Below are positions 2,787 through 38,528 of a stretch of 64,000 nucleotides of DNA, piece by piece. A program made the position numbers and the translations under genes. Source of the stretch: Candidatus Poribacteria bacterium (GTDB lineage: Bacteria; Poribacteria; WGA-4E; WGA-3G); assembly GCA_022821495.1 (NCBI GenBank), contig JAJEDN010000056.1:41628-105627 (forward strand), in the 5' to 3' direction. Under the pieces are notes generated by a model. The model saw only the letters and a list, made by a program, of their open reading frames with translations, was not told the origin of the DNA and made no database searches. Within the stretch, counting starts at the first letter, position 1, and the number at the start of each line of letters is the position of its first letter.

Positions 2787-4139
2787 ATGGAGAAATTAAT
2801 GAAACGCGTATCCATTGTAATTCTAACCTTCATTTTTCCATTTGTTTTCGTGTTGTCCTACGTGCATTCTGCACAAGATAAGATAGCCGAGCATTATTGG
2901 AATCAGTTCCGCGGTCCAAACGGAGACGGCAAAGCAACTGCGACTAACCTCCCAATCGAATTTAGCGAAACCGAAAACGTCCGTTGGAAAGTACCTATCC
3001 ACGATAAAGGCTATTCATCGCCAGTGGTTTGGGGCAATCAGATTTGGCTGACAACTGCCCGTGAAGATGGGAGAGAACTCTTCGCGATCTGTGTAGACTT
3101 AGAGAACGGCGACATTTTACAGGATATAAAAGTTTTCGATGTCGCTGAGCCACAACTCGAACACGGGGACCTCAACAGCCACGCTTCACCGACACCAATT
3201 GTAGAGGAAGGGCGCATCTATGTTCATTACGGCACTTACGGCACCGCCTGTCTGGACACGCAAACGGGTGATAAACTTTGGGAACGCCGAGACCTCAATT
3301 GTGATCATCGGGTGCGTCCCGCCTCTTCGCCGATTATTGATGAAGATACACTATTTCTCACCTTCGATGGCGTTGATGTGCAGTTTATCGCCGCGCTTGA
3401 TAAAAATACTGGCGATACCCTGTGGCTGCAGCACCGAAAAGTTGACTCCAATTTTGGAGATGTTCTCAAAGCCAAAGGCGTTACCGATATAGAAGGAACA
3501 AAAAAAGAAAAACCAAATGACAACAGGAAATCCTATGCGACGCCTACGATCATTACGTTCCAAGGAAAGAAACAGTTGGTGAGTCCGGCGGCGGAAGTCA
3601 CAATTTCCTACGACCCAAAAACAGGAGAGGAACTCTGGCGCGTCCGGCACGAGGGTTGGGGATGGAATGTTGCATGCCGTCCGATTTTCGCGCACAATCT
3701 CGTCTATTTTACAACGGGTGTGGAAAAATTGTTGTTGGCAGTTGATCCCTCTGGCACAGGTGATGTTACCAATTCGCACGTTGTTTGGCGCAATCGCAAG
3801 GGGGCCCCCGAAATACCGTCACCTCTGATTGTAGACGATCTGATGTTCATGGTAAACGAAGGCGGTGTCGTCGCTTGTTTAGAGGCGAAAAGCGGGAATC
3901 AGGTATGGAGAGGTCGGGTCGGCGGAAATCACTGGGCATCACCGCTATACGCAGGTGGGAACATCTATTTTTTCAGTATGGACGGGCGAGTGTCGGTTAT
4001 CTCTGCCGGACGAGAGTTCAAATTGCTCGCACGCAACGAGTTCGACACGGAATTCATTGCATCTGGCGCAGCTGCCGGAAATACCCTAATCCTCCGTTCA
4101 CGCACGCATCTCTACTGTATTGAGGATACTTCCTCTTGA
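2787..4139 (+). CDS. PQQ-binding-like beta-propeller repeat protein
   Basis: Signal peptide, WNQFRGPNGDGKATATNLPIEFSETENVRWKVPI, repeated PQQ-like blades (CLDTQTGDKLWERR, SYDPKTGEELWRVRHEG, CLEAKSGNQVWRGRVGG). Confidence 0.85.
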   Translation: MEKLMKRVSIVILTFIFPFVFVLSYVHSAQDKIAEHYWNQFRGPNGDGKATATNLPIEFSETENVRWKVPIHDKGYSSPVVWGNQIWLTTAREDGRELFAICVDLENGDILQDIKVFDVAEPQLEHGDLNSHASPTPIVEEGRIYVHYGTYGTACLDTQTGDKLWERRDLNCDHRVRPASSPIIDEDTLFLTFDGVDVQFIAALDKNTGDTLWLQHRKVDSNFGDVLKAKGVTDIEGTKKEKPNDNRKSYATPTIITFQGKKQLVSPAAEVTISYDPKTGEELWRVRHEGWGWNVACRPIFAHNLVYFTTGVEKLLLAVDPSGTGDVTNSHVVWRNRKGAPEIPSPLIVDDLMFMVNEGGVVACLEAKSGNQVWRGRVGGNHWASPLYAGGNIYFFSMDGRVSVISAGREFKLLARNEFDTEFIASGAAAGNTLILRSRTHLYCIEDTSS

Positions 4140-19970: not shown

Positions 19971-20897
19971 ATGAAACTGTGGAAAGCAGAAGAGAATCGG
20001 GCTGCCTTTGAGTATGCTCGCAAGATAACCGCCCACTATTCAAAAAGCTTTTATTTCTCAGCACAAATGCTGCCCAGAGAACAACGGTGGGCGACATTTG
20101 CACTGTACGGTTTCTGCCGACACTGCGATAATCTGATTGACACTCCGCGTCAGCGAACCGAAACAGAAATCCTTGGAGAGATTCAACGCTTGACAGAAGA
20201 ATTACAGATTGCTTACAATACAGGTGAGTCTCAAGACCCAATTATTCGGGTGTTCATTCTCGTTGCTAAAGCGTATGGTATCCCTATTGCATACCCGCTT
20301 GATCTGCTCAACGGGGTGGCTATGGATGTCCAGCAGACACGCTATAAAACATTCGATGAACTCTCTCTGTTCTGTTATCGGGTGGCTGCTGTTGTTGGAC
20401 TGATGATGACGCATGTCCTCGGTTATAAGGATGAACGTGCCTTTGATTATGCCAGGCAACTTGGTATCGCTATGCAACTGACCAATATCCTGCGGGATAT
20501 AAAAGAAGATAAAGAGATGGGACGGCTCTATATACCCGAAGCGGATTTGGTGCAGTTCGGTGTAACCGAGCAAGACATCTTCAACGAGAAAATGACACCC
20601 CAATTACGAGCACTTATGAAATTCCAAGTTGAACGCGCGCATCAATACTATACTGAAGCGATACCGGGCATCTCCTTACTTAAAACGGAATCGCAATACG
20701 CCATATATTCGGCTGCAAGAATTTACCGCGGCATCTTAAGAAAAATCGAAGATCGCGATTACAACCCGTTCTTAAACCGAGTATTCGTCTCTTCAACACA
20801 GAAAGTCGGGATTCTATTACATGAACAGATTCGGACTAAATTCTTATCGGCACAGGAAAAACTTTTTCCTGTCCATTCCGGAACAATACATAAATGA
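19971..20897 (+). CDS. crtB: Phytoene/squalene synthase family protein
   Basis: HYSKSFYFSAQMLPREQRWATFALYGFCRHCDNLID; YCYRVAAVVGLM-type motif; AMQLTNILRDIKEDKEMGRLYIPEADL. Start moved to ATG 19971. Confidence 0.92.
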   Translation: MKLWKAEENRAAFEYARKITAHYSKSFYFSAQMLPREQRWATFALYGFCRHCDNLIDTPRQRTETEILGEIQRLTEELQIAYNTGESQDPIIRVFILVAKAYGIPIAYPLDLLNGVAMDVQQTRYKTFDELSLFCYRVAAVVGLMMTHVLGYKDERAFDYARQLGIAMQLTNILRDIKEDKEMGRLYIPEADLVQFGVTEQDIFNEKMTPQLRALMKFQVERAHQYYTEAIPGISLLKTESQYAIYSAARIYRGILRKIEDRDYNPFLNRVFVSSTQKVGILLHEQIRTKFLSAQEKLFPVHSGTIHK

Positions 20898-21553
20898 TTC
20901 CTGCACAACACCGCCTCTGGGCGGACATCATCTTCCAACCGTATCTTGCTCGGTTGTTTAAAAAACATTTTCATGAAATTCAGTTGTTCGGGGAATCGCC
21001 GGAAATACCGGATCAGCTGCCGGTGTTGCTATTGCCGAACCACAGCACATGGTGGGACGGATTCTTCGTTTACCTACTCAACAAACGGATCTTTCACCGC
21101 ACTGCCTATCTGATGATGTTAGAAACGCAGCTAACGAAATACAAGTTCTTCAGGAAAATAGGGGCTTATTCAATTGAACCGAAGAATCGACGCGGTGTCA
21201 TTGAATCCCTCGAATACACCGTGGAATTACTGAACCGAGAGATGTCGCTCGTCTCCGTTTTTCCGCAGGGACAACTGTTGCCGTGGCATACGCGCCCGCT
21301 CGGTTACAAGCGCGGCGTTGAGTGGATTTTACGAAAATATGGCAAACCGGTAACGCTGCTGCCATTGGCGATTCGCACTGAGTTCCTCGGTGAGAAACGT
21401 CCAAGCGTGTTTTTTCTATTTGGGGATGTCACTCCATTTAACGCAGAAACATTTCAAGGCATGGATTGGCTCGAAAAAACTGAAACTGGATTGTTAGAGG
21501 ATCTTGCTTCAAAAATTATGCGTCAAGAAGTGGGACAAAACCTGTTGTGCTGA
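20894..21553 (+). CDS. 1-acyl-glycerol-3-phosphate acyltransferase-like (PlsC family), probable carotenoid acyltransferase
   Basis: LLPNHSTWWDGFFVYLLNKRIFHRTAYLMM; FPQGQLLPWHTRPLGYKRGVEWIL; overlaps crtB stop. Confidence 0.82.
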   Translation: MIPAQHRLWADIIFQPYLARLFKKHFHEIQLFGESPEIPDQLPVLLLPNHSTWWDGFFVYLLNKRIFHRTAYLMMLETQLTKYKFFRKIGAYSIEPKNRRGVIESLEYTVELLNREMSLVSVFPQGQLLPWHTRPLGYKRGVEWILRKYGKPVTLLPLAIRTEFLGEKRPSVFFLFGDVTPFNAETFQGMDWLEKTETGLLEDLASKIMRQEVGQNLLC

Positions 21554-21568
21554 AAGGGCGGTGCTGCC

Positions 21569-23362
21569 TTGTTTATTACATTGATGCTTCTCTCGATAGT
21601 TCTATTGGCGGTTGTTTTGGCAGTCGCGTTATTTAATGCTGCGACTGCGCCGATGCTAAAAAAATCTGTCAGTCTCCAGAAACGTCCCCGCGTCTCAGTG
21701 TTGATTCCCGCGCGTAACGAAGAAGCCAACATCGGTGCTTGTGTTGAAGGGTTTTTGTCTCAAAACTACGATAACTTTGAGATTCTTGTGCTTGATGATC
21801 AGTCCGCTGATCGGACGGCATTGATTATCGAAAAATTCGGCGAACAACATTCTGAGGTTCAGGCGATTCGCGGGAAACCATTGCCCATTGGATGGTTGGG
21901 GAAAAATTGGGCATGCCATCAACTCAGCCAATATGCGAATGGAGAGATACTGATTTTCACCGATGCCGATAACTGCCCGGCACCGAACGCGATTACGAAT
22001 ACCGTTGCCTATATGCAGAAGTTGGAACTTGGCTTGCTCTCGGCGTTTCCTGAGAAGTTAACCATAACCTTGGCAGAAAAACTCGTTGTGCCAGTCGTTG
22101 ACATGTTCGTTTATGCAGGACTTCCGCTATGGCTAACATATTTCAGTCGTTTTCCGTCGCTTGCTGCTGCGAGCGGTCTCTGGATCGCTTTTACTCGCGA
22201 TGCATATCAACAGATTGGTGGACATCAAGCGGTGTCAAATCAGATTGTTGAGGACGTTGAATTAAGCCGATTGGCTAAGAAGAATGGTATCAGAATCTTA
22301 ACGTTAGCGGGCACTCGCGTGGTGTCTTGCAGGATGTATCATTCGTTCAGTGAGGTATGGAGTGGGTTTTCCAAAAACCTTTTTGGATTGGTACGCTACA
22401 AAACAGTCCCGTTTTTTATCCTAATGTTGGCACTGTTTACAATGTGTGTGCTGCCCTATGTGACTGTCTGGTTTGCTTCACTTAGAGAATTATCAATTGC
22501 CGCGATCGTTATGAATGTCGCCATGCGGTTGGTACTATCACTCAAATATAGGCACCCGTTCTTTACAAGTGTGGGTCTGCATCCGTTTGGTGTGCTGTTC
22601 ACCTTACTGATTGGTATTAATTCATTTTTTCAAGTCAGACGGGGTCGCTTGCAGTGGAAAGGGCGGCAGATCGACATTCAGGTGAATGGTAGGGGTTGGG
22701 TTACCCAACCCCTATTAAAGATAAGCGTGCTTTATTTACTTTTAGGTGCAGGCGGGTTATGGCATATACTTGATGTATTCCAAGCCACCATGCGAGTCCT
22801 CGCTTCACCCATAATGTTTGGCTTAAGTATTTGGCTGTTTTGGGAGTGTTGGCGGATATATCCAGCGTCTGAAAGGTCAAAATTCGCCTTAATGGGTACA
22901 TACGTTATTGTCGGAAGTTTCGGGATTGAGTGGATCGGTGTTCGGACAGGCGCGATTTTCGGTGCCTACAGGTATGGAGAGACGTTGCATCCGGCGATCG
23001 GTGGTGTCCCCATCAGTATTGGGTGTGCTTGGTTTGTGATGCTTATCGCCTCAACCGCTGTTGCTCAGAAAATCGCGCCGAAAGCCTTAGCGGAAAGTCG
23101 TTTCAAACTGGCGTTTTTAGTGGCGTTGTTAATGGTCTGTTTCGATCTGCTCATGGAACCGGCAGCAGTGAAGCTCGATTATTGGATGTGGATGGATAAC
23201 CATATCCCTTTACGAAACTATCTGGTATGGTTTGGATTGAGTTTTATCTTTGCGATAACCGGTTTACAAACAGGCATATTCCGCCAACAGTTGCCTCGGA
23301 TTGCGGTTCACTTCTATTTTGCACAAGTAGCTTATTTCGGACTCGTGGTCTTGAAAAGTTAA
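21569..23362 (+). CDS. Fusion: family 2 glycosyltransferase (CruC/CrtQ-like) + CruF-like carotenoid hydratase (DUF422)
   Basis: N-terminal RVSVLIPARNEEANIGACVEGFLSQNYDNFEILVLDDQSADRT; C-terminal GIEWIGVRTGAIFGAYRYGETLHPAIGGVPISIGCAWFVM and MEPAAVKLDYWMW. Confidence 0.85.
   Translation: MFITLMLLSIVLLAVVLAVALFNAATAPMLKKSVSLQKRPRVSVLIPARNEEANIGACVEGFLSQNYDNFEILVLDDQSADRTALIIEKFGEQHSEVQAIRGKPLPIGWLGKNWACHQLSQYANGEILIFTDADNCPAPNAITNTVAYMQKLELGLLSAFPEKLTITLAEKLVVPVVDMFVYAGLPLWLTYFSRFPSLAAASGLWIAFTRDAYQQIGGHQAVSNQIVEDVELSRLAKKNGIRILTLAGTRVVSCRMYHSFSEVWSGFSKNLFGLVRYKTVPFFILMLALFTMCVLPYVTVWFASLRELSIAAIVMNVAMRLVLSLKYRHPFFTSVGLHPFGVLFTLLIGINSFFQVRRGRLQWKGRQIDIQVNGRGWVTQPLLKISVLYLLLGAGGLWHILDVFQATMRVLASPIMFGLSIWLFWECWRIYPASERSKFALMGTYVIVGSFGIEWIGVRTGAIFGAYRYGETLHPAIGGVPISIGCAWFVMLIASTAVAQKIAPKALAESRFKLAFLVALLMVCFDLLMEPAAVKLDYWMWMDNHIPLRNYLVWFGLSFIFAITGLQTGIFRQQLPRIAVHFYFAQVAYFGLVVLKS
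22690..22714. repeat. Palindrome at the GT2/CruF junction
   Basis: TAGGGGTTGGG TTA CCCAACCCCTA, 11-bp perfect arms. Confidence 0.85.
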
Positions 23363-23366
23363 AAAT

Positions 23367-24083
23367 ATGAAAACAATAAACAAAGGTCTATTCATTGCAA
23401 TAACCATTATTAGCGCGTGGGGCTTGGGCCTCTCCGTTTTGCTCACCCTTGATGTTGCGCGTCCCAATAGTGTGTTGCTATTTATGGGTGTCCTTTGTCA
23501 GACGTTTCTTTACACCGGTCTCTTCATCACAGCACACGACGCGATGCACGGGACAGTTTGTCCGGCATATCCACGCATCAATAATACAATTGGCGCAATT
23601 GCTGTTAGGTTATACGCGTTGTTTTCATATCGCAAATTGTTAGTGAAGCACTCGGCGCACCATCGGACACCTGCAAGTGCTGCAGACCCTGATTTTCATG
23701 ATGGCGAACACAGCCGTTTCTTGGTGTGGTATCTCCGCTTCATGAAAGAATACCTCAGCTGGGGGCAGATCGTCGGCATGGCGATTGTGTTTCAGATTAT
23801 GGAATATGTCTTGCTGGTTCCCACTATCAACCTCATCCTATTCTGGGTTTTTCCAGCATTGCTGAGTACGCTGCAACTGTTTTATTTTGGGACATACCTG
23901 CCACATCGACTGCCAGAGGGAGGATATGATAACCCACACCGGGCGCGAAGCAATGCGTACTCGACACTCTGGTCGTTTATCACCTGCTATCATTTCGGTT
24001 ACCATTGGGAGCACCACGAGTATCCCTACCTTCCTTGGTGGCGGTTACCAACGATACGCAAAGCAGGGAATCTTCCGAAATGA
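23367..24083 (+). CDS. crtW: Beta-carotene ketolase CrtW (fatty acid desaturase family)
   Basis: ITAHDAMHGTV; KHSAHHRTP; FGTYLPHR; NPHRARSNAYSTLWSFITCYHFGYHWEHHEYPYLPWWRLP. Confidence 0.88.
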   Translation: MKTINKGLFIAITIISAWGLGLSVLLTLDVARPNSVLLFMGVLCQTFLYTGLFITAHDAMHGTVCPAYPRINNTIGAIAVRLYALFSYRKLLVKHSAHHRTPASAADPDFHDGEHSRFLVWYLRFMKEYLSWGQIVGMAIVFQIMEYVLLVPTINLILFWVFPALLSTLQLFYFGTYLPHRLPEGGYDNPHRARSNAYSTLWSFITCYHFGYHWEHHEYPYLPWWRLPTIRKAGNLPK

Positions 24084-24778
24084 GTCCAATCATTACTGTT
24101 GTCATAGGATTTGCATTAGCGGTACTACTATGGTTTTTCTTTCGACCCCCTTTTGGAAAGAATAGGGTTCGCCTGAACACAGGCCAACGGATCGTCGCAC
24201 TCACCTACGACGATGGACCGAATCCGCCTTATACCGATCAGTTGCTCGACGTACTTGCGAAGCACAACGTCAAAGCCACCTTCTTCATGATTGGAAATCG
24301 GATTGAAAGGCATCCGGAAACGGTCCGTCGGGTTATCACTGAAGGACACGAGGTTGGCAACCACACTTATAGCCATCCTGTGTTGGGTTTCTTACCTCCG
24401 TCCCATGTCCAGCGGCAAATTGAACGCACGGACGCTATCCTTCAGCAATACGGCGTTGCAAAGGATAGCGTATTTCGGGCACCGCTGCTAACGCGGTTTT
24501 TACCTGTCGCTTATGTGCTTGCGAAACTGAATCGAACACACATCAGCTGCAATGTCTGGAGTTGGGATTGGACGACACAGAACCCCGACAAGATCGCTGA
24601 AACAGTATTAAAGAAAACACTTTCATCTACAGGCGCGGGTTCAATTATCGTCCTACACGACGGGAAAGCGGAAAATAAGAAGGCAAACCGTTCCGGGACA
24701 ATCGAAGCGACGGATCGAATCATTACGGCACTTAAACAGGACGGATACCAGTTTGTGCGGTTGTCGGATGTCAGTTAA
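24080..24778 (+). CDS. Polysaccharide deacetylase (NodB homology) family protein
   Basis: IVALTYDDGPNPPYTDQLLDVLAKHNVKATFFMIGNRIERHPETVRRVITEGHEVGNHTYSHP; ATGA overlap with crtW stop. Confidence 0.9.
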   Translation: MSPIITVVIGFALAVLLWFFFRPPFGKNRVRLNTGQRIVALTYDDGPNPPYTDQLLDVLAKHNVKATFFMIGNRIERHPETVRRVITEGHEVGNHTYSHPVLGFLPPSHVQRQIERTDAILQQYGVAKDSVFRAPLLTRFLPVAYVLAKLNRTHISCNVWSWDWTTQNPDKIAETVLKKTLSSTGAGSIIVLHDGKAENKKANRSGTIEATDRIITALKQDGYQFVRLSDVS

Positions 24779-24857: not shown

Positions 24858-26897
24858 TCAGTCTGCTGCTTCTACAGAAATGTTTGCGACAAAAACGTTT
24901 ATGCTCCCTTTTTTACTGAACCAGTCGCCGGTGGCACCGAGTTTAAAGACAGTTCCCTGCTCAAAACGATGACTGATTGTCCCTGATTTACCGGGTTTAA
25001 TGCCCCACGCCGAGACGAGTGCTGCGTCAGGTATCCCTTCTGTCGGAAGTTCAGTATCGCGATCAAATAGGTCAAACGAACCGGATGCGTCTGCGTTCCC
25101 AACTCGGATATCAACAGTTAGCACGCCACCACTTTCAAACGCCGTGGTATCAATATTGACGACAGTGTAATCTTGGTAGTCTCTTCCAGGTGCGCGGAAA
25201 TTGAGCAAAACCTCTTGCTCAGACTTTTCGGCATTAAGTACAAGGCTGATCTCGTTTAATGGCGTTTGTGAGGTTTCAATAGGTCTCTCTTCTAAGGATT
25301 CCACCCGAATTTTTGCGTGAAAAGCGTTTATGTCGCCTATTCCACCCCATTGGTCGCCAGTCCCACACAATTTAAAGCGTTGACCGCGATCAAACAGATA
25401 CATAATATGCCCAGTTTCACCGGGGAATATCCCCCTGACTTTCGTCAGTGCGTCGAGTGCCTTCTCATATTCATCACTGTCTTGGTCGTTCCATACTTCG
25501 GGATCAATACCATCAGGTGCTTCTGCTGTCGGAAGCTTTTTGTCTCCATCAAGGAGATGGAAAATCCCTATTCCGTCATCTCTACCGACGTGGATGTCGG
25601 CAGTGAGTGTGCCACCCTCTTGAAACGCCGTGGCATCAATATAGACAACAGTATAGTCCTGATGCGCTGCTACCGGACTGCGAAAGGTGTCTACGACCTC
25701 CTGTGAAGGGTGTTCTGGCGTGAGGACGAGCGTCCCCAATCCGGGACGTTTTCCTTCCATGGATGCTTTGAGAAAAAACAGGTAAGCCTCTCCACGGCTC
25801 TCAAACTCGCCCAAACATTCGGGGAAAAAATTGTAGTCTATGCCGCCCATCACTTCAAACTCTGGCGAAATAACCAAACAATCTACGGGTGACCCTTTTT
25901 TCCAGCCTTTCATAATCGCTTGTGCCAAGGCGTGACTTGTGTCGAACGTCTTCCCTTCGCGTTCACGTCGTCTCGTAATCGGTTCTCGCAAACTCGGTGT
26001 TCTCCCTAATTCAGAGTTAGGGACCCAGGCGTTAATGAAGTTTTCGTTCAAAAATTCGATAATTTGATCTTTGGAGAGCTCAACTGCCCTCAGGATTTTA
26101 CCAGTCCCTCAGCACGCCTCATCAAAGAGCGGTCCGTCTACGGAGATGACATGGATCGGTTTCTGTTCGGCGGGTGCCAGCTCCAACGCTTCCTCCAGCG
26201 ATACCCAGTTGATTTTTTGAAACTTGTAGAAACGTGAGGACAGTGCGCGTTCGGCTGCTTCTTGCGTAATTGACGCGGTGAATTTAAACGACAGCGCTTC
26301 GCTTTCGGCATCATGCGGTGGTGTGCCAGTAGCAAGCTCCATCTTCGGACAAAAGCCGATCTCCGCAGCGGTTCCCGCGTCTCGTGTCCAACCCGCATCG
26401 AAGTTAATTGTCGTTGGCGGCACGGACATCTTGAAGGAGACGACCTGCTCTCGGCATCGATCAATAAATAGATGCCCGGCAAATTGGGACGGCGTAAACT
26501 TACCGCGCTTCATGATGAATTCCGCATGGATACGGAACACAATTTCAGCGACTCCATCATTGTAAGCGCGCAGACACGCCCACAAGCCATACGAATCCCC
26601 TGAGTCAATGGTTAGCTGCAGGCGCGGGTTGGGAAGCAGTTGTTTCAGTAGCGTTAGCGCGCCCGCTTCTTGAATCTCCCAGCACTCACCCACCCCAACC
26701 GGTGCCGATGGCAGGAACGCTTGAAAAGCGGATGTAGGATACTGCTTCTCCGGTTCAGCAACCCGAAAGTTCGCCAACTCATCCCATTCCACATGAAAGT
26801 TATATTGTGTGTATTCAATCGGCGCGATGAAACCGTTGACGGACACCTCTGTGTCCCCGGCAAGATTAAGTGTGATTTTATTCAGTGGTGTTTTCAC
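24858..26897 (-). CDS. SelN-like selenoprotein 1; Sec TGA at 26109-26111; two C-terminal beta-sandwich-like repeats (679 aa)
   Basis: Track ORFs 26109..26897 and 24858..26051 are in the same frame and open apart from one TGA: ISVDGPLFDEAC-U-GTGKILRAVELSKDQIIEFLNENFIN. GTG start. Confidence 0.88.
26074..26091 (-). promoter_or_regulatory. Putative bacterial SECIS hairpin, gene 1
   Basis: GAGGGC-AGUUGA-GCUCUC, 17 nt after UGA. Confidence 0.65.
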
Positions 26898-28467
26898 GTT
26901 GATCTACCTCTACAGAAATTTTTGCGAGAAAAGCGTTGACACATGCTTCCTCTTCGTCGGAATACCCCGTAACACCCAACTTAAAAAGTTGGCCTTGGTC
27001 AAAACGATGCGTAATTTGTCCAGTTTCACCGGAGGCACTCCATGCCCACGCAAGGATATCGTCTTTAAATATTCCTTCTTTTATCGAGAGTTTCTTATCA
27101 CCGTTCAAGAGATAAAACGTGCCATCACCCTCTCCTCTGCCGACTTCAATATCAACGGTTAGCGTACCCCCGTTTTCAAAGGCTTTCGCATCAATCACGA
27201 CGACGGTGTAATCCTGATGATCGCCTGTTGGTGTCGAAAAAGTGTCCAATACTTGCTGTGAAGGCTGCGCCTTAGTAAAAATAAGGTTGCCCAATCCGGG
27301 TTGTTTTCCTGTTAAGGCTTCCTTGAGAAATGTGAGGTAATACGCATCGCTTTGGAGCCCCCTGTTTCTACTATCCTTGCCGAGGTCATTGACGAGTTGT
27401 CTACCCATTAATTCAAACGCTGGCGATATGACGAGGCAGTCTACCGGTGAGCCTTTTTTTGCCCCAGTTTTCCAAGCCTTGATAATCGCTTGTGCCAAAG
27501 GGTGCGTTGTGTCATAAGTCTTACCTTCACGTTCGCGTCTTTTGGCGATCGGTTCCCGTAGGCTGCGAATACGTCCTAACTCAGAGTTAGGGACCCATGT
27601 ATTAATGAAGTTTTCGTTTAAGAACTCAATGATTTGTTCATTAGAGAGGACACCTGCCCTCAGTCCCTTGCCGCTCCCTCAGCACGACTCGTCGGCGAGC
27701 GGTCCATCTATGGAAATAGCATGGATCGGTTTCTGTTCTGCGGGTGCCATCTCTAATGCTTCTTCAAGCGATACCCAATTAATCTGCTGCGATTTGTAGA
27801 AACAGCGTATCAGTTTGTGCGCTGCTGCTGCGTGTGTAATGGATTCTGTGAATTCAGTGTTTTGCAAAACGTCTTCTGTTCCAGCTCGAAGTTCAATTCG
27901 CGGGCAGAAGCCGATGTCTGTAGACCATTGAGAATCGTCAGAACCTCCCGTTTTATTCCACCAAGTGTCGAAATTCAGGGTGCCTTTAGGAACGTGCATC
28001 TGGAAAAATACGACGCTCTCGTTGGTTCGATCAATAACAAGATGTCCGGCAAACTGTGACGGTGTAAACCAACCGTTCTCTAACTTGAACTCCGCATGAA
28101 TGCGAAATACAATGTCAGCGAATTCATCGTTATATGCGCGCAAACATGCCCATAGCCCACAAGAGTCCCCTGAATTAACGTGCATATCAAGGTGAGATTC
28201 AGGATGAAGTTGCTTGAGCAATGCCAGAACACCAGCATGTTCAATTTCCCAGGATGTACCAACAGGAACAGCCTCCTTAGGAAGGAAATCGCAGAAGATT
28301 GAGGTGGAATACTGTTTTTCGGGTTCAGCAACGCGCAGATTTATCAACGCGTCCCACTTTTCATGAAAATTGTATTGTGTGTATTCAATCGGAGCGATGA
28401 AGCCTTTGACGTTGACTTCTGTTTCTCTATCAAGTTTGAGTGTGATTTTGTTTCCTAAAGTGTCCAT
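26878..28467 (-). CDS. SelN-like selenoprotein 2; Sec TGA at 27679-27681; one C-terminal repeat (529 aa)
   Basis: ISIDGPLADESC-U-GSGKGLRAGVLSNEQIIEFLNENFINTWVPNSELG; ORFs 27679..28467 and 26878..27498 are in frame and the gap is fully open. Confidence 0.9.
27646..27661 (-). promoter_or_regulatory. Putative bacterial SECIS hairpin, gene 2
   Basis: GAGGGC-AGGU-GUCCUC, 17 nt after UGA. Confidence 0.7.
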
Positions 28468-28468
28468 T

Positions 28469-30442
28469 TCAATCTTCCTCTACAGAAATCTTTAGGTAAA
28501 AGGCATTGGTGTTCCCCTTTTCGGCGAACCAATCCCCGGTGGCACCGAGTTTAAAAACTTCGCCTCGCGCAAAACGATGCCTGATTGTTGTCGCTGTATT
28601 CGGGCTAATACCCCATGCTGAGACGAGTGCCTCCGGTATCCCTTCGGTCGGGAGCTCCGCGTCGCTGTCAAACAGGTCAAATGAACCGGCAGTATCCGCA
28701 CTCCCGACCTGGATATAGATACTAAGTGTGCCACCGGCTTCAAACGCCGTGGTATCGATATTAACGACAGTGTAATCTTGATAACCGTTTCCGGGTGCCC
28801 GAAAAATATCCAATATTTCCGGCGATGATTGTGCACTGTCGAGTACAACACGCAAGCCAGTTGAAGGTGTGCCTGAAGTGCCTTCATTTAAATTTTTCTG
28901 TACGGAAACTGTTGCGCGAAAAGCGTTGACACACGGTTCCGCTTTATCCCAATGTCCGGTAGCACCCAACTTAAAAAGTTGACCGCGATCGAAACGATGT
29001 CTGATCTGCCTTGTGGCACCGGCTTCGATCCATGTCCGAGCAAGCATGTCTTTAGGCGTTTTTTCTTCTGTGGAAAGTTCGCTATCACCGTCAAACAGAT
29101 AGAACACACCTTCACCTTCGTCTCTGCCAACTTCAATGTCAATAGTGAGTGTGCCACCGTTTTCAAAGTCCGTGGTATCAATCACAACAACGGTCCAATC
29201 TTGATAACCGACTGTCGGTGTCCGAAAAACGTCCAATACCTCTTCTGAAGCAGATTCTCTGGTAAGAATGAGGTTCCCCAATCCGGGTTGTTTCCCACCC
29301 AGAGATTGCTTGAGGAATGTCAGATAATATTCATACGATGCGAGTCCGCTACGATTACTGTCTTCATGGAGTTCATTGACGAGTTGTCTGCCCATCAATT
29401 CAGAATCTGGCGAGATAATCAAACAGTCTACCGGCGAATGTTCTTTCCACCCCTTCATGACGGCTTCTGCCAAAGGATGTGCCCTATTAAACAGTGCCCT
29501 GGATCCGGCTTCAAATCTCTCTGCCGCATAGTCACGCATTACCGATGTTCGCTCTAATACAACATTCGACACCCAGACATTAATGAAGTTCTCATTCAAG
29601 AATTCAATAGTTTCATCATAAGAGAGGACACCTGCCCTCAGACTTTTGCCGCTCCCTCAGCACGCCTCATCAGCGAGCGGTCCATCTATTGAAATCACAT
29701 GAAGCGGTTTCTGTTGTGCTTGTGCTATTTCTAACGCTTGCTCCGGCGGTACCCAGTTAATTTGCTCTGATTTATAGAAACGCTGTATCAGGATGCGTTC
29801 CGCTTCTTCATCGGTAATGGAATCGCCTGTGAATTTAAACGACAGCGCTTTGCTTTCGGCATCTCGAACGGGGTTCTGTGTTCCGACCCGGAGTTCCATC
29901 TGCGGACAAAGACCGGAATCGATAATAGAATTCCAGCTAACATCAAAGTTTATTGGCCCCTCAGGGACATACATCTGAAAAAAAGCAACCTTCTCTCCGA
30001 TTCGGTCAACGACAAGATGTCCCGTAAACTGCGACGGCGTAAACCTGCCATCTTCAAACTTGAACTCCGCATGAATCCGAAACACAATGTCGGCGAATTG
30101 ATCGTTATACGCCCGCAGGCATGCCCATAACCCGCAGGAATCACTGGCATTGATGCTTATATCTAAATTTGGATTCGGATGCAGTTGCTGGAGCAATTCC
30201 GTTACACCCTCTTCCTGAATCCGCCAGCATTCACCGACTGAAACCGATTGCGTTGGGAGAAAAGACTGAAAAACCGATGTAGCATGGTCCTTTTCGGGTT
30301 CAGCGACACGAAGATTCGCCAATGCGTCCCACTCAACGTGGAAGTTGTTTATTGTATGTTCAATCGGTGCGATGAAGCCTTTAACGTTGACTTCTGCTTT
30401 TCTATCAAGCTTGAGTGTGATTGGGTTTGATAATGTTTCCAT
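28469..30442 (-). CDS. SelN-like selenoprotein 3; Sec TGA at 29657-29659; two C-terminal repeats (657 aa)
   Basis: ISIDGPLADEAC-U-GSGKSLRAGVLSYDETIEFLNENFINVWV; in-frame junction. Confidence 0.9.
29624..29639 (-). promoter_or_regulatory. Putative bacterial SECIS hairpin, gene 3
   Basis: GAGGGC-AGGU-GUCCUC, 17 nt after UGA. Confidence 0.7.
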
Positions 30443-30443
30443 T

Positions 30444-32450
30444 TTAATTCTCCTCTACAGAAATTTTTGCGTAAAAGGCATTTGTCCGTCCTTTCTCGCT
30501 GTACCAATCCCCTGTTGCTCCAAACTTAAACACTTTGCCTCGTACGAATCGGGTTTTGATTTTTCCTGCTTCACCCGGTCTAATTCCCGACACAGAGCGG
30601 ATCGCTTCAGTCGGATGACCTTCTGTTGGGAGTTCAGTATCGTCCCTAAAGAGAGCAAACGAACCGGAAGGGGCACCATTACCGACCTGGATATCAATAA
30701 CTAATGTCCCACCATTTTCAAACGCCATCGCATCAATATTGACGACAGTATAATTCTGATAACCGGTGCCGGGTGCCCGAAAAACGTCTAATATCTCCTG
30801 CGACGGTCGCGCTTTGTCCAGTACAACATCTGGTGTGTCCTCATCCGATTCAAGATATTCCCCGCCTAAGGATTCCGCTTGTTGATCCGCCACTACAGAA
30901 ATTTTTGCCCGAAACGCGTTGATACACGCTTCGTCTCGCCTCCAATGTCCGGTAGCACCTAACTTAAAAAATTGACCGCGCTCAAAACGATGTATGATTT
31001 GACGGGTATCACCGGGTTCACCCCATGTCCAAGTAAGCATGTCTTTCGGGGTCTCTTCTGTTGTGGGGAGTTCGGTATCGCTATCAAACAGATAGAACCC
31101 GACTTCACCCTCTTCCCGACCGATTTCAAAGTCAATAATGAGTGCGCCGCCGTTTTCAAACGCAGTGGCATCAATCGTAACAACGGTCCAATCCTGAAAC
31201 CCAACCGTTGGTGTCCGAAAAAGATCCAACACCGACTGTGAAGACTGTTCAGGGGTGAGAACAATATTCCCCAATCCGGGCTGTTTTCCTTCTAAGGCTT
31301 CCTTGAGAAATTCCAAGTAATACTCATGCCGCCAGAGGCCCCGGCGCTCACTGTCTTCGTGAAGGTTATGGACCATTTGCTTACCCAGCAGTTCAAACGC
31401 TGGCGATATAATCAAACAATCTACCGGTGAACCTTTTTTGGATCCGGTTTTCCAACCTTTAATAATCGCTTGTGCTAATGGGTGCGATGTGTCAAAGTGC
31501 TTACCCTCGCGTTCGCGTCTTTTGGCAATCGGTTCCTGTAAACCATAGATACGTCCTAATTCACAGTTCGGTACCCATGTATTGATAAAATTTTCGTTCA
31601 AAAATCCGATAACTTCGTCTTTGGAGAGCACACGTGCCCTCAGGCCCTTGCCACTCCCTCAGCAGGATTCGTCTAAGAGCGGTCCATCTATCGAAATAGC
31701 ATGGATCGGTTTCTGTTCTGCAGGAGCCATCTCCAACGCTTCTTCAAGCGATACCCAGTTAATTTGCTGCGATTTATAGAAACAGAGTGCCAATTGGTGT
31801 TCCACTTCTGCTTGCGTTATGGATGCTGTGAATTCGATATTTTGCGCAACATCTTCTATTCCAGCGCGGAGTTCTATTTGTGGACAAAAGCCGCTATCCG
31901 TAATATGACCCTCCTCATCTGGATCGATTTTCCACCAAGTACCAAAATTTATGGTGGTATTCGGAACGGACATCTGAAAAAACGCAACTGATCTTTTAAT
32001 TCTATCAATAACAAGGTGCCCCATAAATTGGGAAGGCGTGAACCAACCGTCCTTTAGGAGAAACTGTGCATGGATGCGGAACACAATGTCAGCGAATTCA
32101 TCATTGTAGGCGCGGAGACATGCCCACAGCCCTTGAGATTCGCTTTTATACGGCAGATCCCAACGCATATTCAGATATGGATTGGGGTGAAGTTGTTTCA
32201 GCAACTCCAAAGCACCTGCGCGCTTAATCTTCCAAGCCGTACCGACAGGGACAGCTTCCTTCGGAAGAAAGGCGCGGAAAATTGAGGCGGGATACTGTTT
32301 TTCTGGCGCAGCGGCGCGCAGATTTGCCAATGTATCCCAGTCTACATGAAAATTACTTCCAGTATACTCAATCGGCGCAATGAAGCCTTTGACGTTGACT
32401 TCTGCGTTGCTGTCAAGATTAAGTGCAATTTTGTTATCGAAAGTTTTCAT
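30444..32450 (-). CDS. SelN-like selenoprotein 4; Sec TGA at 31659-31661; two C-terminal repeats (668 aa)
   Basis: ISIDGPLLDESC-U-GSGKGLRARVLSKDEVIGFLNENFINTWV; start set at MKTFDNKIALNL to match paralogs. Confidence 0.9.
31624..31641 (-). promoter_or_regulatory. Putative bacterial SECIS hairpin, gene 4
   Basis: GAGGGC-ACGUGU-GCUCUC, 17 nt after UGA. Confidence 0.65.
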
Positions 32451-32577
32451 TTTTCTTTCTAAACTTCCTTTTCGGTATAGGATACCATTGCCATTAGAAG
32501 GCAGCAATGATTCGCTTATACATGTTTTTGGATGCACTTATAGCGGCCTTGAATGCTGAGACCGAGCTCACGTAATT

Positions 32578-33729
32578 TTAGGTCGCATCGACAAATCCGG
32601 GCAATCTTCCTTTTAGGGAATCTATGAGAAATGTAAGATAACTCTCCGCTTCTGGAATGCCCCTATCCCATGTTTCATCAAGGAAATCGTTAAGGGGTTG
32701 TTGACCCATCAACGCAAAATCGTGAGAGATGACCAAACAATCCACCGGGGAACCTTCTGTCCATCCTTTCATGATGGCTTGTGCCAAGGCGTGCGTTGTA
32801 TCAAAGGTCTTGGATTCGCGTTCACGTCTTTTGGCGATCGGGTCTCGTAGACTTGACGCGCGCCCTAATTCGGCATTGGGTACCCACGTATTAATAAAGT
32901 TTTCGTTCAGGAACTTTATGATCTGTTCATCAGAGAGGACACCTGCCCTCAAGATTTTTCCACTCCCTCAGCAGGATTCATCCGCAAGGGGGCCATCTAT
33001 TGAGATGGCGTGAATCGGTTTCTGTTGTGCGGGTGCTATTTCCAAGGCTTCGACCAGCGATACCCAATTAATTTGTTCTGATTTGTAGAAATGCAATATT
33101 AAGGCGCGTTCTGCCGCTTCCTGAGTGATGGATGCTATAAACTGCTTATCTTGCAAAACCTCTTGCGTTCCAGCACAGAGTTCTATTTGTGGGCAGAAGC
33201 CAATGTCCGTACAACCGATGGTATCCCAACCGACATCGAAGTTCAGTGTGCTTTTAGGCACGTGCATCTGAAAGAATACGATCTGTTCTTTCGTTCGGTC
33301 AATGACGAGGTGTCCAGCAAATTGGGAAGGCGTGAACCAACCACCCTTTAAAGCAAATTCCGCATGAATCCGAAACACAACCTCAGCCAACTCATCGTTA
33401 TAAGCGCGGAGGCATGCCCACAAACCTTGTGAGTCTTCAGCATCCATTTCCAGATGTGGATCCGTGTGAAGTTGCTTCAGCAGTGTGAGTACACCTTCTT
33501 CTTCAATACACCAAGATTCACCTACTAAGACGGCTTCGCTCGGAAGGAAAGCATGAAAGATAGAGGCATCATATCGCTTTTCTGGTTCAGCAACACGCAG
33601 ATTCGCCAACGCATCCCACTCTTCATGGAAGTTGTATTGTGTGTATTCAATCGGCGCGATGAAACCCGTGACGTTAACTTCCGCATTACTGTTAAGATTG
33701 AGTGTGATTTTGTTTGGGTTCGTTTTCAT
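32578..33729 (-). CDS. SelN-like selenoprotein 5; Sec TGA at 32968-32970; short form without C-terminal repeats (383 aa)
   Basis: ISIDGPLADESC-U-GSGKILRAGVLSDEQIIKFLNENFINTWV; terminates at LPGFVDAT*; start set at MKTNPNKITLNL. Confidence 0.88.
32935..32950 (-). promoter_or_regulatory. Putative bacterial SECIS hairpin, gene 5
   Basis: GAGGGC-AGGU-GUCCUC, 17 nt after UGA. Confidence 0.7.
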
Positions 33730-33730
33730 T

Positions 33731-35404
33731 TTAGTTTTCTGCCACAGAAATTCTCGCCTGAAAGGCATTGACGTGCTCTTTCTTATCCATCAGTTCAGCG
33801 GCTGCGATTACAAGTTTAAAAACTTGACCTCGGTAGAAAGGATATGTAATTCGTGCGGTTTCACCGGTCGGAACGTCCGTAGCATTGGCAATAGATTGGT
33901 CGTAACGCTGCCAGCGTTCTACCGGGAACTCAATGTCGCTATCGTACAAATAGAAGGAACTTGGGAGTTTCGCACTACCGACACGTATATCAATAGTTAG
34001 TATTCCACCCTTTTCAAAGGCGGTGGCATCAATTCTTACGATAGTGGACTCCTGATAACCGACCTCCAGCGTCCGAATAACATCCAATACTTCCAACGTA
34101 GGGTGCGTAGGGTTGAGCACAACCTCCAAACCCGTTAAGAAAGGTTTGAAAGGACTCTCCTGCTCAGGGGTATCCTCTTCCTCACCTAATAGATAAGCGA
34201 AAGAATTATCAGCACTAAATCCCGGATATTTTCCTTCTAAGGCTTCCGTGAGAAAGAGTCGGTAATTTTCTGCCCTTGTCCTACCGCCATCCCAGTCGTG
34301 ACCGCCGTAGAGAAATTCATTCAAAGCAAGTTTACCTTTCAATTCAAAGTCAGGTGATATGACAAAGCAGTCTACAGGTGAGCGTTCGTGCCAACCGCTC
34401 TTGATCGCTTGTGCTAACGAATGGTTAGCGTCAAACGATTTAGATGCGTGTCCATATCTTTTGACAAGGTATTCTCGTGAACTCGGTTTACGCGCTAATT
34501 CAAAATTGGAAACCCAAGTGTTGATAAAGTTATCGTTCAGGAATTTAATGACGCGTTCATTGCCGAGGACAACTGCCCTCAAATCTTTACCGCTCCCTCA
34601 GCATGCTTCATCGGCGAGCGGACCATCCAGAGAAATGACGTGAACAGGTGTCTGCTGTACCTGTGTCATTTTCAACGCTTTCTCCAACGATACCCAGTTA
34701 ATGCGTTGTGATTTATAGAATTGCAGTATTAGCGAACGCTCGGCTTCTGCTTGTGTGATTGCTGCTATGAATTCGGTGTTCTTTAGAACATCTTCTGAAC
34801 CGGCACGGAGTTCCATTTGCGAGCAGTAACCGCAATCTGTAATCCATCTCGGAGCGTCCCAACCCTCTAATGTCGTTTCCCAATGAACATCAAAGTTTAG
34901 TGTGCCTGGAGGGACGTACATCTGAAAAAATACGACAGCCTTTTGGTTCCGATCCATAACGAGATGTCCAGCAAACTGCGAGGGTGTGAACCAACCGTCG
35001 GTTAAGGCAAATTCCGCATGAATCCGAAACACAATGTGGGCAAATTGATCGTTGTAAGCGCGCAAACACGCCCGGAGACCTTTCGCCTCTTCTAAGCCGT
35101 ACATCTCCACACGCATTTCCAGAGAGGTGTTCGGATGCAGCTGTTCCAGCAATTCTTGGACACCGGTTTCTTTAATTTCCCAGCATTCACCCACAGAAAC
35201 GGCTTCAGTTGGGAGAAAATCACGAAAAATGGTGGCAGCATACAGCTTTTCTGGTTCCGCAGCTCGCAGGTTCGCCAAAGCCTCCCATTTCTTATGGAAG
35301 TTGCCTACAGTATGCGCAATCGGGGCGATGAACCCTTGGACAGCGATTTCAGCGTCTTTGTCAAGATTAAGTGTGATTTTGTTTTTGATCGTTTTCATTT
35401 CCAT
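33731..35404 (-). CDS. SelN-like selenoprotein 6; Sec TGA at 34598-34600; one C-terminal repeat (557 aa)
   Basis: ISLDGPLADEAC-U-GSGKDLRAVVLGNERVIKFLNDNFINTWV; in-frame junction. Confidence 0.9.
34565..34580 (-). promoter_or_regulatory. Putative bacterial SECIS hairpin, gene 6
   Basis: GAGGGC-AGUU-GUCCUC, 17 nt after UGA. Confidence 0.65.
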
Positions 35405-37025
35405 GTTCCTCTACAGAAATTTTTGCGATAAAAGCGTTGATGCTCCCTTTTTCACTCCAACGGCTTCCAGTAGCACACAATTTAAAGCGTTGCCCTTGCG
35501 CAAAACGGAGGGTGATTTGTTCCGTATCGCCGGGATCTATGTACCATACTGTGGCAAGTGCATCAAGTGCTTTCACATACTCAGCACCTTGCTGACTATT
35601 CCATACTTCGGCATCAATGCCGTCAGGTGCTTTTTCTGTCGGGAGTTCTCTGTCGCCATCAAACAGATGGAACTTCCCCTTTGCATCGTCCCCACCCACT
35701 TGGATATTGATAGTGAGCGTACCACCGTCTTCAAAGGCTGTGGTATCAATCACGAAAACAGTGTAATTTTGATGCGCCACCATTGGGGTGCGAAACGTGT
35801 TCAATATCTCCAGAGAGGGCTGCTCTCTTCTCAGGATAAGATTCCCCAATCCCGGCTGTTTTCCCGCCAAGGAATCCTTGAGAAATGTAAAGTAATACGC
35901 ATACGCTCGGAGGCCTCTACGCCTACTGTCGACACCGAGATCATTGACAGGTTGCCTGCCCATTAATTCGAGAGTTGGTGAGAGAACGAAACAATCTCCT
36001 GGGGAAGCTTTCTTTGAGCCGGTTTTCCACCCCTTTTTGATGGCTTCTGCCAACGGATGTGTTGTATCAAATATCTTAGATTTGTGTTCGCACCTTTTAG
36101 CAATCGATGCCTGTAAACTCGACTTTTTTCCTAATGCGGCAGTTGTTACCCAAGTATTAATGAAGTTTTCGTTCAAAAATTCAATATTTTTTTCGTCAGA
36201 GAGGACACCTGCCCTCAGACCTTTACCGCTCCCTCAGCACGCCTCGTCTGCAAGCGGTCCGTTTACGGCGATCGCATGAATGGGTTTCTGCTGTGCCTGT
36301 GCAATCTCCAACGCATTTTCGAGCGGGACCCAGTTAATCTGCTGCGATTTGTAGAAACAGCATGCTAATTTGTGTTCTGCTTCTTCTTCGGTGATAGCTT
36401 CCGTGAATTTTAAGGCTTGCACGCCTGTTTGTGTTCCAGAACGGAGTTCCATTTGTGGGCAATAGCCAGCAGCGGTAATTACAATGCCTGGGTCCCATCC
36501 ATCTTCTGTCGTTTCCCAGTTGACATCAAAGTTCAGTATGCCTTCAGGAACGCGTAGCTGGAAAAAGGCTACGGTTTCTTGGCTCCGGTCAATAGTGAGG
36601 TGCCCTGCCAACTGTGCGGGTGTGAACCAACCGTCTTGTATGGCAAATTCTGCATGGACACGAAACATAATGTCGGCGAATTGATCGTTGTAAGCGCGCA
36701 GGCATGCCCATTTACCACAGGAATCGCCTCCATCGTTCCGCATGTCCAAAGATGGATTGTGGGAAAGTTGCTGGAGCAACGCGAGGACACCCTGTTTTTC
36801 TACCTCCCAACACTCACCAACAGAGATGGATCCATTAGGAAGAAAGGCACGGAAAACGGAGGTAGGATACCGCTTTTCTGGTTCAGCGACTTGCAGATTC
36901 GCCAGAGCATCCCACCTCTCATGGAAGTTGCTTGAAGTATACGCAATCGGCGCAATAAAACCTTTGACGGACACCTTCATCTCACTGTCAAGATTGAGTG
37001 TGATTTGGTCTGGTAAAGTTTTCAT
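35367..37025 (-). CDS. SelN-like selenoprotein 7; Sec TGA at 36234-36236; one C-terminal repeat (552 aa)
   Basis: IAVNGPLADEAC-U-GSGKGLRAGVLSDEKNIEFLNENFINTWV; in-frame junction. Confidence 0.9.
36201..36216 (-). promoter_or_regulatory. Putative bacterial SECIS hairpin, gene 7
   Basis: GAGGGC-AGGU-GUCCUC, 17 nt after UGA. Confidence 0.7.
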
Positions 37026-37028
37026 TTT

Positions 37029-38528
37029 TTACCCATCCTGCGTCGTTCTTGGAATAATATCGTGAACACCGCCTTCACGGATACTTGCCGAAGAGACTAA
37101 CACGAATCTCGCTTTTTGACGAAATTCCGGCAGCGATATCGCCCCACAATTACACATGAGCGATCGGATTTTTGCGAGGGTCGTTTTCAAATTATCGTTC
37201 ATCTTTCCGGCATAAGGCACGTAGGCATCAGCACCCTCCTCGAACAATAATTCTGAGCCGCCGCCTTCGTGGTAGCGTTGCCAATTAGCAGCTCGCTTTG
37301 TGCCTTCGCCCCAATATTCTTTCACGGTATTCATACCCAATTTTCTCAACTTACTCGGACTCTCATCAAACCTTGCAAAGTATCTGCCCATCATCACGAA
37401 ATCAGCACCCATGGCAAGTGCTAAACCGATATGATAATCTTGGAAGATACCGCCATCTGAACAAATAGGCACGTAAACACCGGTATCCTTCAAATACTGA
37501 TCCCTTTGCCGAGTAACTTCAATGACAGCAGTCGCTTGTCCACAACCGATACCTTTCTGTTCCCTCGTTATACAGATAGCGCCGCCACCGATACCTACTT
37601 TTACAAAATCAGCACCGGCTTCCACCAAGTACATAAAAGCGTCCCCATGAACGACGTTCCCGCCCCCTACTTTTACTGTCCCATCGTACGTATCTTTAAT
37701 AAATCGAATCGTGTCTGATTGCCATTCGGTATACCCTTCGGAAGAATCAACGCAAAGAACATCGACACCTGCTGCGACTAAGGCAGGTACTCTTTCCTTG
37801 TAATCTCTTGTATTAATTCCAGCACCGACGACAAGTCTTTTCTGCGAGTCTACGGATTCAAGCGGATTTTTCTTATGGTCATCGTAATCTTTTCGGAAGA
37901 CCAAATGTATGAGTTTACGATTTTCGTCGACAACTGGTAGACAATTTATCTTGTGCTCCCAAATAAGGTCGTTGGCAGCTTCAATCGCAATTCCTTTTTC
38001 CCCTACAATCAACTGCGAAAATGGGGTCATCAATTCGCCGACTTTAGTGTTTAAATCTACTCGACTCAATCTATAATCTTTATCTGTTATGAGTCCGAGC
38101 AGCTCACCTGAAGGCGAACCATCTTCGGTTATCGGAATCGTCGAGTGTCCTGTCTCTTCGGTGAGCTTCACGACATCTGCTATCGTGCTATCACACTTTA
38201 AATTTGAGTCGCTGACGACAAACCCTGCTTTATGGCTTTTAACTGTCCGTACCATTGCTGCCTGTTCTTCAATACTTTGAGACCCATAAACAAAGGAAAT
38301 CCCGCCCTGCCTCGCCAGTGCGATTGCCAGATTATGATCCGAAACAGCCTGCATGATTGCTGAAGCAAACGGGATATTCACTTCCAGAGAGGCTTGCTGC
38401 CCTACTTTAAACTTCACAAGAGGTGTTCTCAGGATAACGTTTTCAGGGATACAACCCTTCGTCGTTAAGTTCGGTAAAAGCAAATATTCACTGAAAGTCC
38501 GGCTTGCTTCAGGAAAAAAATGAGCCAT
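37029..38528 (-). CDS. guaB: IMP dehydrogenase with CBS domains
   Basis: [103 protein letters not shown]. Confidence 0.88.

Follow-up and report, generated by a model that had tools for sequence, protein, structure and literature searches.

A window of 64,000 nucleotides (nt) from a Candidatus Poribacteria bacterium (assembly GCA_022821495.1, contig JAJEDN010000056.1, positions 41,628 to 105,627) carries seven consecutive genes resembling selenoprotein N (SELENON, or SelN) on its minus strand, at 24861-37025. Each gene was annotated mechanically as two open reading frames (ORFs) in the same frame, an upstream B and a downstream A, separated by a TGA. These are very probably true bacterial selenoprotein genes, homologs of SELENON in a likely operon, in which SelB and a bacterial selenocysteine insertion sequence (bSECIS) would direct readthrough of UGA as selenocysteine (Sec); their products are most likely selenol oxidoreductases. 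Judged from its sequence, the array consists of bacterial Selenoprotein N genes that have expanded in tandem, shuffled domains and stayed almost exclusively in the Sec form. Homology, the Sec decoding signals, selection, old paralogy and a conserved locus were all computed; the operon, the cytosolic location, the redox chemistry and a division of labour among the copies are inferred.

The frame of every gene is open from start to terminal stop apart from a single TGA. All seven B/A pairs proposed by the first-pass annotation were correct, with the minor refinement that the TTG or GTG starts listed mechanically for the A ORFs are internal codons rather than genuine starts. The encoded proteins are 55-71% identical to one reference member over the aligned span. 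With TGA read as Sec, the genes in transcription order are as follows.

35370-37025, minus strand: gene 1 (first transcribed), 552 amino acids (aa), one C-terminal domain, stop TAA
33734-35398, minus strand: gene 2, 555 aa, one C-terminal domain, overlaps the end of gene 1
32581-33729, minus strand: gene 3, 383 aa, the core alone, without a C-terminal domain
30447-32450, minus strand: gene 4, 668 aa, two C-terminal domains
28472-30442, minus strand: gene 5, 657 aa, two C-terminal domains, true stop TGA
26881-28467, minus strand: gene 6, 529 aa, one C-terminal domain, structural model with mean predicted local distance difference test (pLDDT) 85.7
24861-26897, minus strand: gene 7, 679 aa, GTG start, two C-terminal domains, true stop TGA

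Of the six gene junctions, five are overlaps or 1-nt spacings and the remaining one is a gap of 127 nt; with such tight spacing the array looks like one operon. Several junctions have a sequence resembling a ribosome-binding site, AGAGGA, embedded in the codons for the conserved ...ISVEE... stretch of the preceding gene, suggesting that translation of adjacent genes is coupled. Five genes terminate at TAA and two (genes 5 and 7) at a genuine TGA, so that UGA carries both meanings within one cluster, as internal Sec codon and as ordinary stop. TGA is also the normal terminator of 10 of the 29 neighbouring ORFs. UGA is therefore an ordinary stop in this genome and would be recoded only in context. 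The internal TGA codons lie at exactly the seven positions reported in the first-pass annotation, within the motif (D/E)(A/S)C-U-G(S/T)GK.

36234-36236, minus strand: Sec codon UGA, gene 1
34598-34600, minus strand: Sec codon UGA, gene 2
32968-32970, minus strand: Sec codon UGA, gene 3
31659-31661, minus strand: Sec codon UGA, gene 4
29657-29659, minus strand: Sec codon UGA, gene 5
27679-27681, minus strand: Sec codon UGA, gene 6
26109-26111, minus strand: Sec codon UGA, gene 7

Conservation of the internal TGA extends well beyond the array. Among 194 distinct full-length family cores from the fetched loci, all of them poribacterial, 193 have TGA at the Sec codon, and none has cysteine (Cys) there. 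The lone exception is a copy starting near position 3645 on the plus strand of locus L071, in which TCA encodes serine (DEAC-S-ESGK); this is possibly an inactivated copy. In 30 diverse members C262-U263-G264-x-G266 is invariant or nearly so, and the CU pair is among the few invariant residues. Nearly all selenoproteins have Cys homologs (PMC13188914), which makes it unusual for a tandem expansion to be held almost wholly as Sec and to show no Cys form. The protein downstream of the codon is also under selection: between window genes and their orthologs in a close relative (genome G032), pooled dN/dS is 0.235 before the TGA and 0.220 after it, and this similarity on either side indicates that the downstream part is a selected protein. 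Together with the retention of TGA in 193 of 194 cores, it places the pattern far outside what chance would produce.

These observations bear on a rival reading, in which UGA is an ordinary stop, B is a complete protein of about 262 aa, and A is separately translated or decaying. Termination at UGA in the neighbouring ORFs and in two array genes is consistent with it. However, A lacks a conserved start of its own, the UGA is retained in all but one core, purifying selection is the same downstream, synonymous positions are constrained immediately after the UGA (described below), and the aligned residue in SELENON is Sec. Termination at the internal UGA is accordingly very improbable.

Each UGA is followed directly by a bSECIS-like element, and a hairpin of the kind described for bacteria is possible in all seven array copies.

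36198-36233, minus strand: bSECIS-like element, gene 1, the 36 nt following UGA, hairpin GAGGGC-AGGU-GUCCUC
34562-34597, minus strand: bSECIS-like element, gene 2, hairpin UUGAGGGC-AGUU-GUCCUCGG
32932-32967, minus strand: bSECIS-like element, gene 3, hairpin GAGGGC-AGGU-GUCCUC
31623-31658, minus strand: bSECIS-like element, gene 4, hairpin GAGGGCA-CGUG-UGCUCUC
29621-29656, minus strand: bSECIS-like element, gene 5, hairpin GAGGGC-AGGU-GUCCUC
27643-27678, minus strand: bSECIS-like element, gene 6, hairpin GAGGGC-AGGU-GUCCUC
26073-26108, minus strand: bSECIS-like element, gene 7, hairpin GAGGGC-AGUUGA-GCUCUC

The bacterial SECIS model specifies a stem of 4-16 bp and a loop of 3-9 nt located 16-37 nt after UGA, with a G among the first two loop positions (PMC13188914). 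With a stem of at least 5 bp, this model fits all 177 distinct downstream sequences versus 38% of synonymous recodings; with at least 6 bp, it fits 176 of the 177 versus 15%. The commonest apex, GGGC-AGGU-GUCC, lies 23 nt after UGA and resembles that of E. coli fdhF (GUUGC-AGGUCU-GCACC), with GC-AGGU common to both. Constraint on codons beyond that on the amino acid, measured as Kullback-Leibler (KL) divergence from family codon usage, is concentrated at codons +1 to +12 (mean KL 1.44 bits, versus 0.39 at 264 other positions; p = 1e-6). Arginine at +7, for example, is AGG or AGA in every copy, and leucine at +11 is CTC in 185 of 194. Constraint falls to near zero at codons +13 and +14, and a few high-constraint codons are scattered outside this region. 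The first 48 nt after the TGA are also more stable than synonymous recodings (mean z -0.97, versus -0.36 to +0.39 for control windows).

The source genome, a draft of 5.37 Mb that is 94.7% complete, encodes most of the machinery required for Sec insertion. It contains selA (532.7 bits), the Sec transfer RNA gene selC (77.5 bits versus a gathering score of 47) and, adjoining selC, selB (343.8 bits). Nearly all relatives in the genus likewise have selA above the cut-off. The first-pass annotation had made its proposal depend on the presence of selA, selB, selC and selD, and the first three were found whereas selD is missing from the draft assembly. Taken together, the machinery genes, the retention of TGA, the codon constraint with its hairpin and purifying selection on both sides support the earlier proposal that the in-frame TGA of the array is a selenocysteine codon. 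A rival explanation is genome-wide reassignment of UGA to tryptophan or Cys, or general suppression; Cys would be chemically plausible beside the existing Cys of a redox motif. This explanation is scarcely credible for a genome in which UGA ends a third of the neighbouring ORFs, three Sec machinery genes are present and a bSECIS-like element follows every array UGA.

Similarity to SELENON, first noted from the sequence alone both around the Sec codon and in the upstream part, was upheld by profile comparison. Human SELENON matches a profile of 19 diverse bacterial cores at 185 bits, with Sec aligned to Sec, whereas the best of 200 shuffles reaches 2.7 bits. The match consists of two colinear segments (87 and 94 bits), of which the N-terminal one (FRIHAEF...FTPSQFAGH...GFCPQMEL) is not thioredoxin-like. 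That the likeness is no more than a short CU motif arising convergently in a thioredoxin fold could be argued from the low sequence identity and from the long human branch in the family tree (2.86 changes per column), but the colinear alignment of two regions, including a domain outside the thioredoxin fold, makes it extremely unlikely. Homology and the position of Sec place the array proteins in the SELENON superfamily, but they do not qualify as SELENON of the vertebrate type, because the EF-hand, membrane anchor and luminal location were each looked for and not found: Pfam detects no EF-hand upstream of the core, which begins at about residue 5, and no array member has a hydrophobic N-terminus, membrane anchor or signal peptide. 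The array proteins are probably cytosolic; a signal-peptide-like N-terminus occurs in 25 of the 194 relatives. Searches of Pfam and NCBIfam returned no family model covering the array proteins, the PDB sequence search returned no related solved structure, and the Rfam search gave no meaningful match.

In the predicted structure of gene 6, a beta-rich N-terminal domain precedes the thioredoxin-like Sec domain, and a beta sandwich forms the C-terminus; the latter two are encoded as follows.

27295-27855, minus strand: thioredoxin-like domain with the C-U motif, approximately residues 205-391 of gene 6
26893-27291, minus strand: C-terminal beta-sandwich domain, approximately residues 393-525 of gene 6

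The Sec domain modelled alone (AlphaFold2, AF2; pLDDT 80.4) has a predicted thioredoxin-like fold, and Foldseek matches it to DsbH, AGR3, DsbD-gamma and the UAS domain with probabilities of 0.9-1.0. The predicted C-terminal domain resembles PliG and pre-peptidase C-terminal (PPC) folds (5sv5, template modelling score, TM-score, 0.62 of target). The "divergent C-termini" of the first-pass annotation resolve into zero, one or two copies of this one homologous beta-sandwich domain per array member.

Several results weigh against the reading of the array as Sec-decoded SELENON homologs. The letters of the human SELENON sequence used in the comparison are unverified, and the Sec domain reaches TM-scores of only about 0.35-0.45 of the query against known thioredoxin folds. 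When the seven elements are folded singly, their energies mostly do not improve on those of dinucleotide shuffles, and two alternative folds compete in the SECIS region. Genuine covariation is present to a modest extent, with one pair changing from G-C to A-U in 18 sequences. RNAalifold finds only a weak consensus across the family, so the SECIS case is built on codon constraint and on the comparison with synonymous recodings. At the array locus, no neighbouring gene points to a substrate. Finally, selD was not found in the 94.7% complete draft; an apparent match was an AIR-synthase-like protein under the selD cut-off and was rejected. An assembly gap at the end of contig C31 is the most likely cause of this absence. 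The flank of selD in G032 matches C31 at 92%, and the match stops 138 bases from the contig end, approximately where selD would start; the contig thus ends about where the G032 gene begins, which would explain the missing selD. Among 35 genus relatives, 34 have the gene, itself interrupted by one in-frame TGA. A selD with an in-frame TGA was likewise observed in essentially all Poribacteria searched (relatives G001-G049).

In the proposed mechanism, the array would be transcribed as a unit, and SelB with Sec-tRNA-Sec would read through each UGA, guided by a bSECIS hairpin starting about 20 nt downstream. Each product, which has no signal peptide and is probably cytosolic, would combine a SELENON-type N-terminal domain with one of thioredoxin fold. 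Adjacent Cys and Sec residues are expected to form a selenenylsulfide, and the pair in the array proteins would most likely do so in a selenol-based thiol/disulfide oxidoreductase. The zero to two beta-sandwich domains and the divergence of old paralogs probably set partner specificity. Oxidoreductases with differing partners are the somewhat favoured function of the array, and an invariant Cys-Sec pair in a thioredoxin-like domain, together with fusions to redoxins in relatives, points to selenol-based thiol-disulfide chemistry. Such fusions occur in two genomes (L166 1463-3352 and L168 1612-3504), where a SelN protein has a C-terminal AhpC/TSA-Redoxin (TlpA-like) domain. Both fused genes adjoin a gene for another redoxin-like protein.

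A competing view holds that the Sec proteins are sensors or regulators: the C-U pair would detect oxidant or selenium status and pass the signal on through partners, making the array a set of detectors. A calcium-sensing role tied to redox activity has been described for animal SELENON (PMC7474598). A homolog elsewhere in the source genome (C84:22719-23831; locus L119 1483-3582, minus strand), which represents a second subfamily, is a 699-aa protein that joins an extracytoplasmic function (ECF) sigma factor, through a transmembrane segment, to a Sec-containing SelN domain. At least one other genome (G023) has an ortholog of the same architecture, the fusion being read directly in L119 and L149, and two further genomes (L147, L148) have SelN parts 87-88% identical in ORFs of similar length. 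Apparently this fusion is a membrane-bound, selenium-dependent, redox-linked sigma factor, and it points to redox sensing in at least one branch of the family. The array members, however, have no regulatory domain or membrane anchor, and the redoxin-fused relatives suggest enzymatic electron transfer; a sensory role for the array is a minority view, at perhaps a quarter of the weight.

The array proteins can be compared with several known systems. Animal SELENON (SEPN1) has the same two-domain core in the same order, with Sec aligned in SCUG(S)G within a thioredoxin-like domain. In contrast to the animal protein, the array proteins lack an EF-hand, transmembrane anchor and signal peptide and have extra C-terminal beta-sandwich domains; their genes occur as seven tandem copies with a bacterial SECIS inside the ORF, whereas the animal SECIS is in the 3' untranslated region. 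DsbH, AGR2-3, DsbD-gamma and the UAS group share the predicted fold of the Sec domain, at moderate TM-scores, but have CxxC or CxxS in place of CU and lack the additional N-terminal domain. The C-terminal GCUG of thioredoxin reductase, whose likeness to SCUG has been stated (PMC12839072), has the same adjacent Cys-Sec pair, yet the array motif is internal to a thioredoxin-like domain and is not accompanied by FAD or NADPH domains. The PPC beta sandwich shares the predicted fold of the C-terminal repeats, which in the array are found on a signal-less selenoprotein with no protease and no Pfam match.

SELENON, the protein lost in a hereditary muscle disease, has been tied to congenital myopathies in humans, and understanding of its biochemistry is poor. 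The SelN family can now be studied in bacteria. With soluble, anchor-free homologs, including the core-only 383-aa product of gene 3, structural and enzymatic work would become practical, and the redox function of the core could be studied apart from calcium sensing and membrane anchoring. The sigma-factor and redoxin fusions provide directly testable functional hypotheses. The family is invisible to current annotation, being split at UGA and lacking a Pfam or NCBIfam model. The first-pass annotation believed that homologs in such bacteria had been noted before; a literature search found no report of SelN in Poribacteria or any bacterium, although earlier reports may exist elsewhere. According to a 2026 SelN review, which says nothing of bacteria, orthologs are known from vertebrates and some invertebrates (PMC12839072), and a 2026 review of prokaryotic selenoproteomes makes no mention of SelN in the main text (PMC13188914). 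One Planctomycetes paper that names selenoprotein N only cites a review of it and was set aside.

Family matches occur in 65 of the 85 genomes of a phylum set, including every member of the family-rank taxon, with none outside the order. All 71 named loci with relatives are Candidatus Poribacteria; searches of viral contigs, plasmids and phages turned up none. On these matches, the array belongs to a Poribacteria-wide expansion of SelN-like genes, whose forms include signal-less arrays, signal-peptide-like forms, sigma-factor fusions and redoxin fusions. A tree built from 66 cores joins most window copies to a G032 copy (support 100% or 99%) and gene 5 to a G017 copy; gene 2 belongs to an open trio whose other members come from G032 and G005. 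Pairing with copies of other species indicates that the duplications predate these species. Poribacteria are known mainly from marine sponges, as symbionts. It is conceivable, if rather unlikely, that animal SELENON is an offshoot of the old poribacterial SelN superfamily, acquired through a symbiont of early animals, with redox sensing inherited from bacterial redox sensors.

The array occupies a conserved locus. In the source genome, G032, G017 and L046, it lies between a side with leuD-like and IMP dehydrogenase-like genes and a side with a polysaccharide deacetylase and carotenoid-cluster genes; the IMP dehydrogenase-like gene was not matched in L046. Copy number at this locus differs between genomes, a pattern indicative of birth and death of copies at a fixed site. 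The immediate flanks in the window are as follows.

37029-38528, minus strand: neighbour on the upstream side, with IMP dehydrogenase/CBS domains; a conserved flank of the locus
24005-24778, plus strand: polysaccharide deacetylase on the downstream side, convergent with the array; a conserved flank of the locus

The plus-strand region 20894-24778, which lies immediately downstream of the array, encodes an acyltransferase, a glycosyltransferase/carotenoid-biosynthesis fusion, a fatty-acid-desaturase-type protein and the polysaccharide deacetylase, which are probably part of a carotenoid cluster. A YhgA-like putative transposase (PF04754; 38678-39712, minus strand) lies near the array, between the IMP dehydrogenase-like and leuD-like genes. 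In two other genomes, a small PIN-like gene (MLNTTNKIT(D/E)A..KLI(A/V)VADASFV) is inserted in SelN arrays (L136 6507-7031 and L137 8819-9343).

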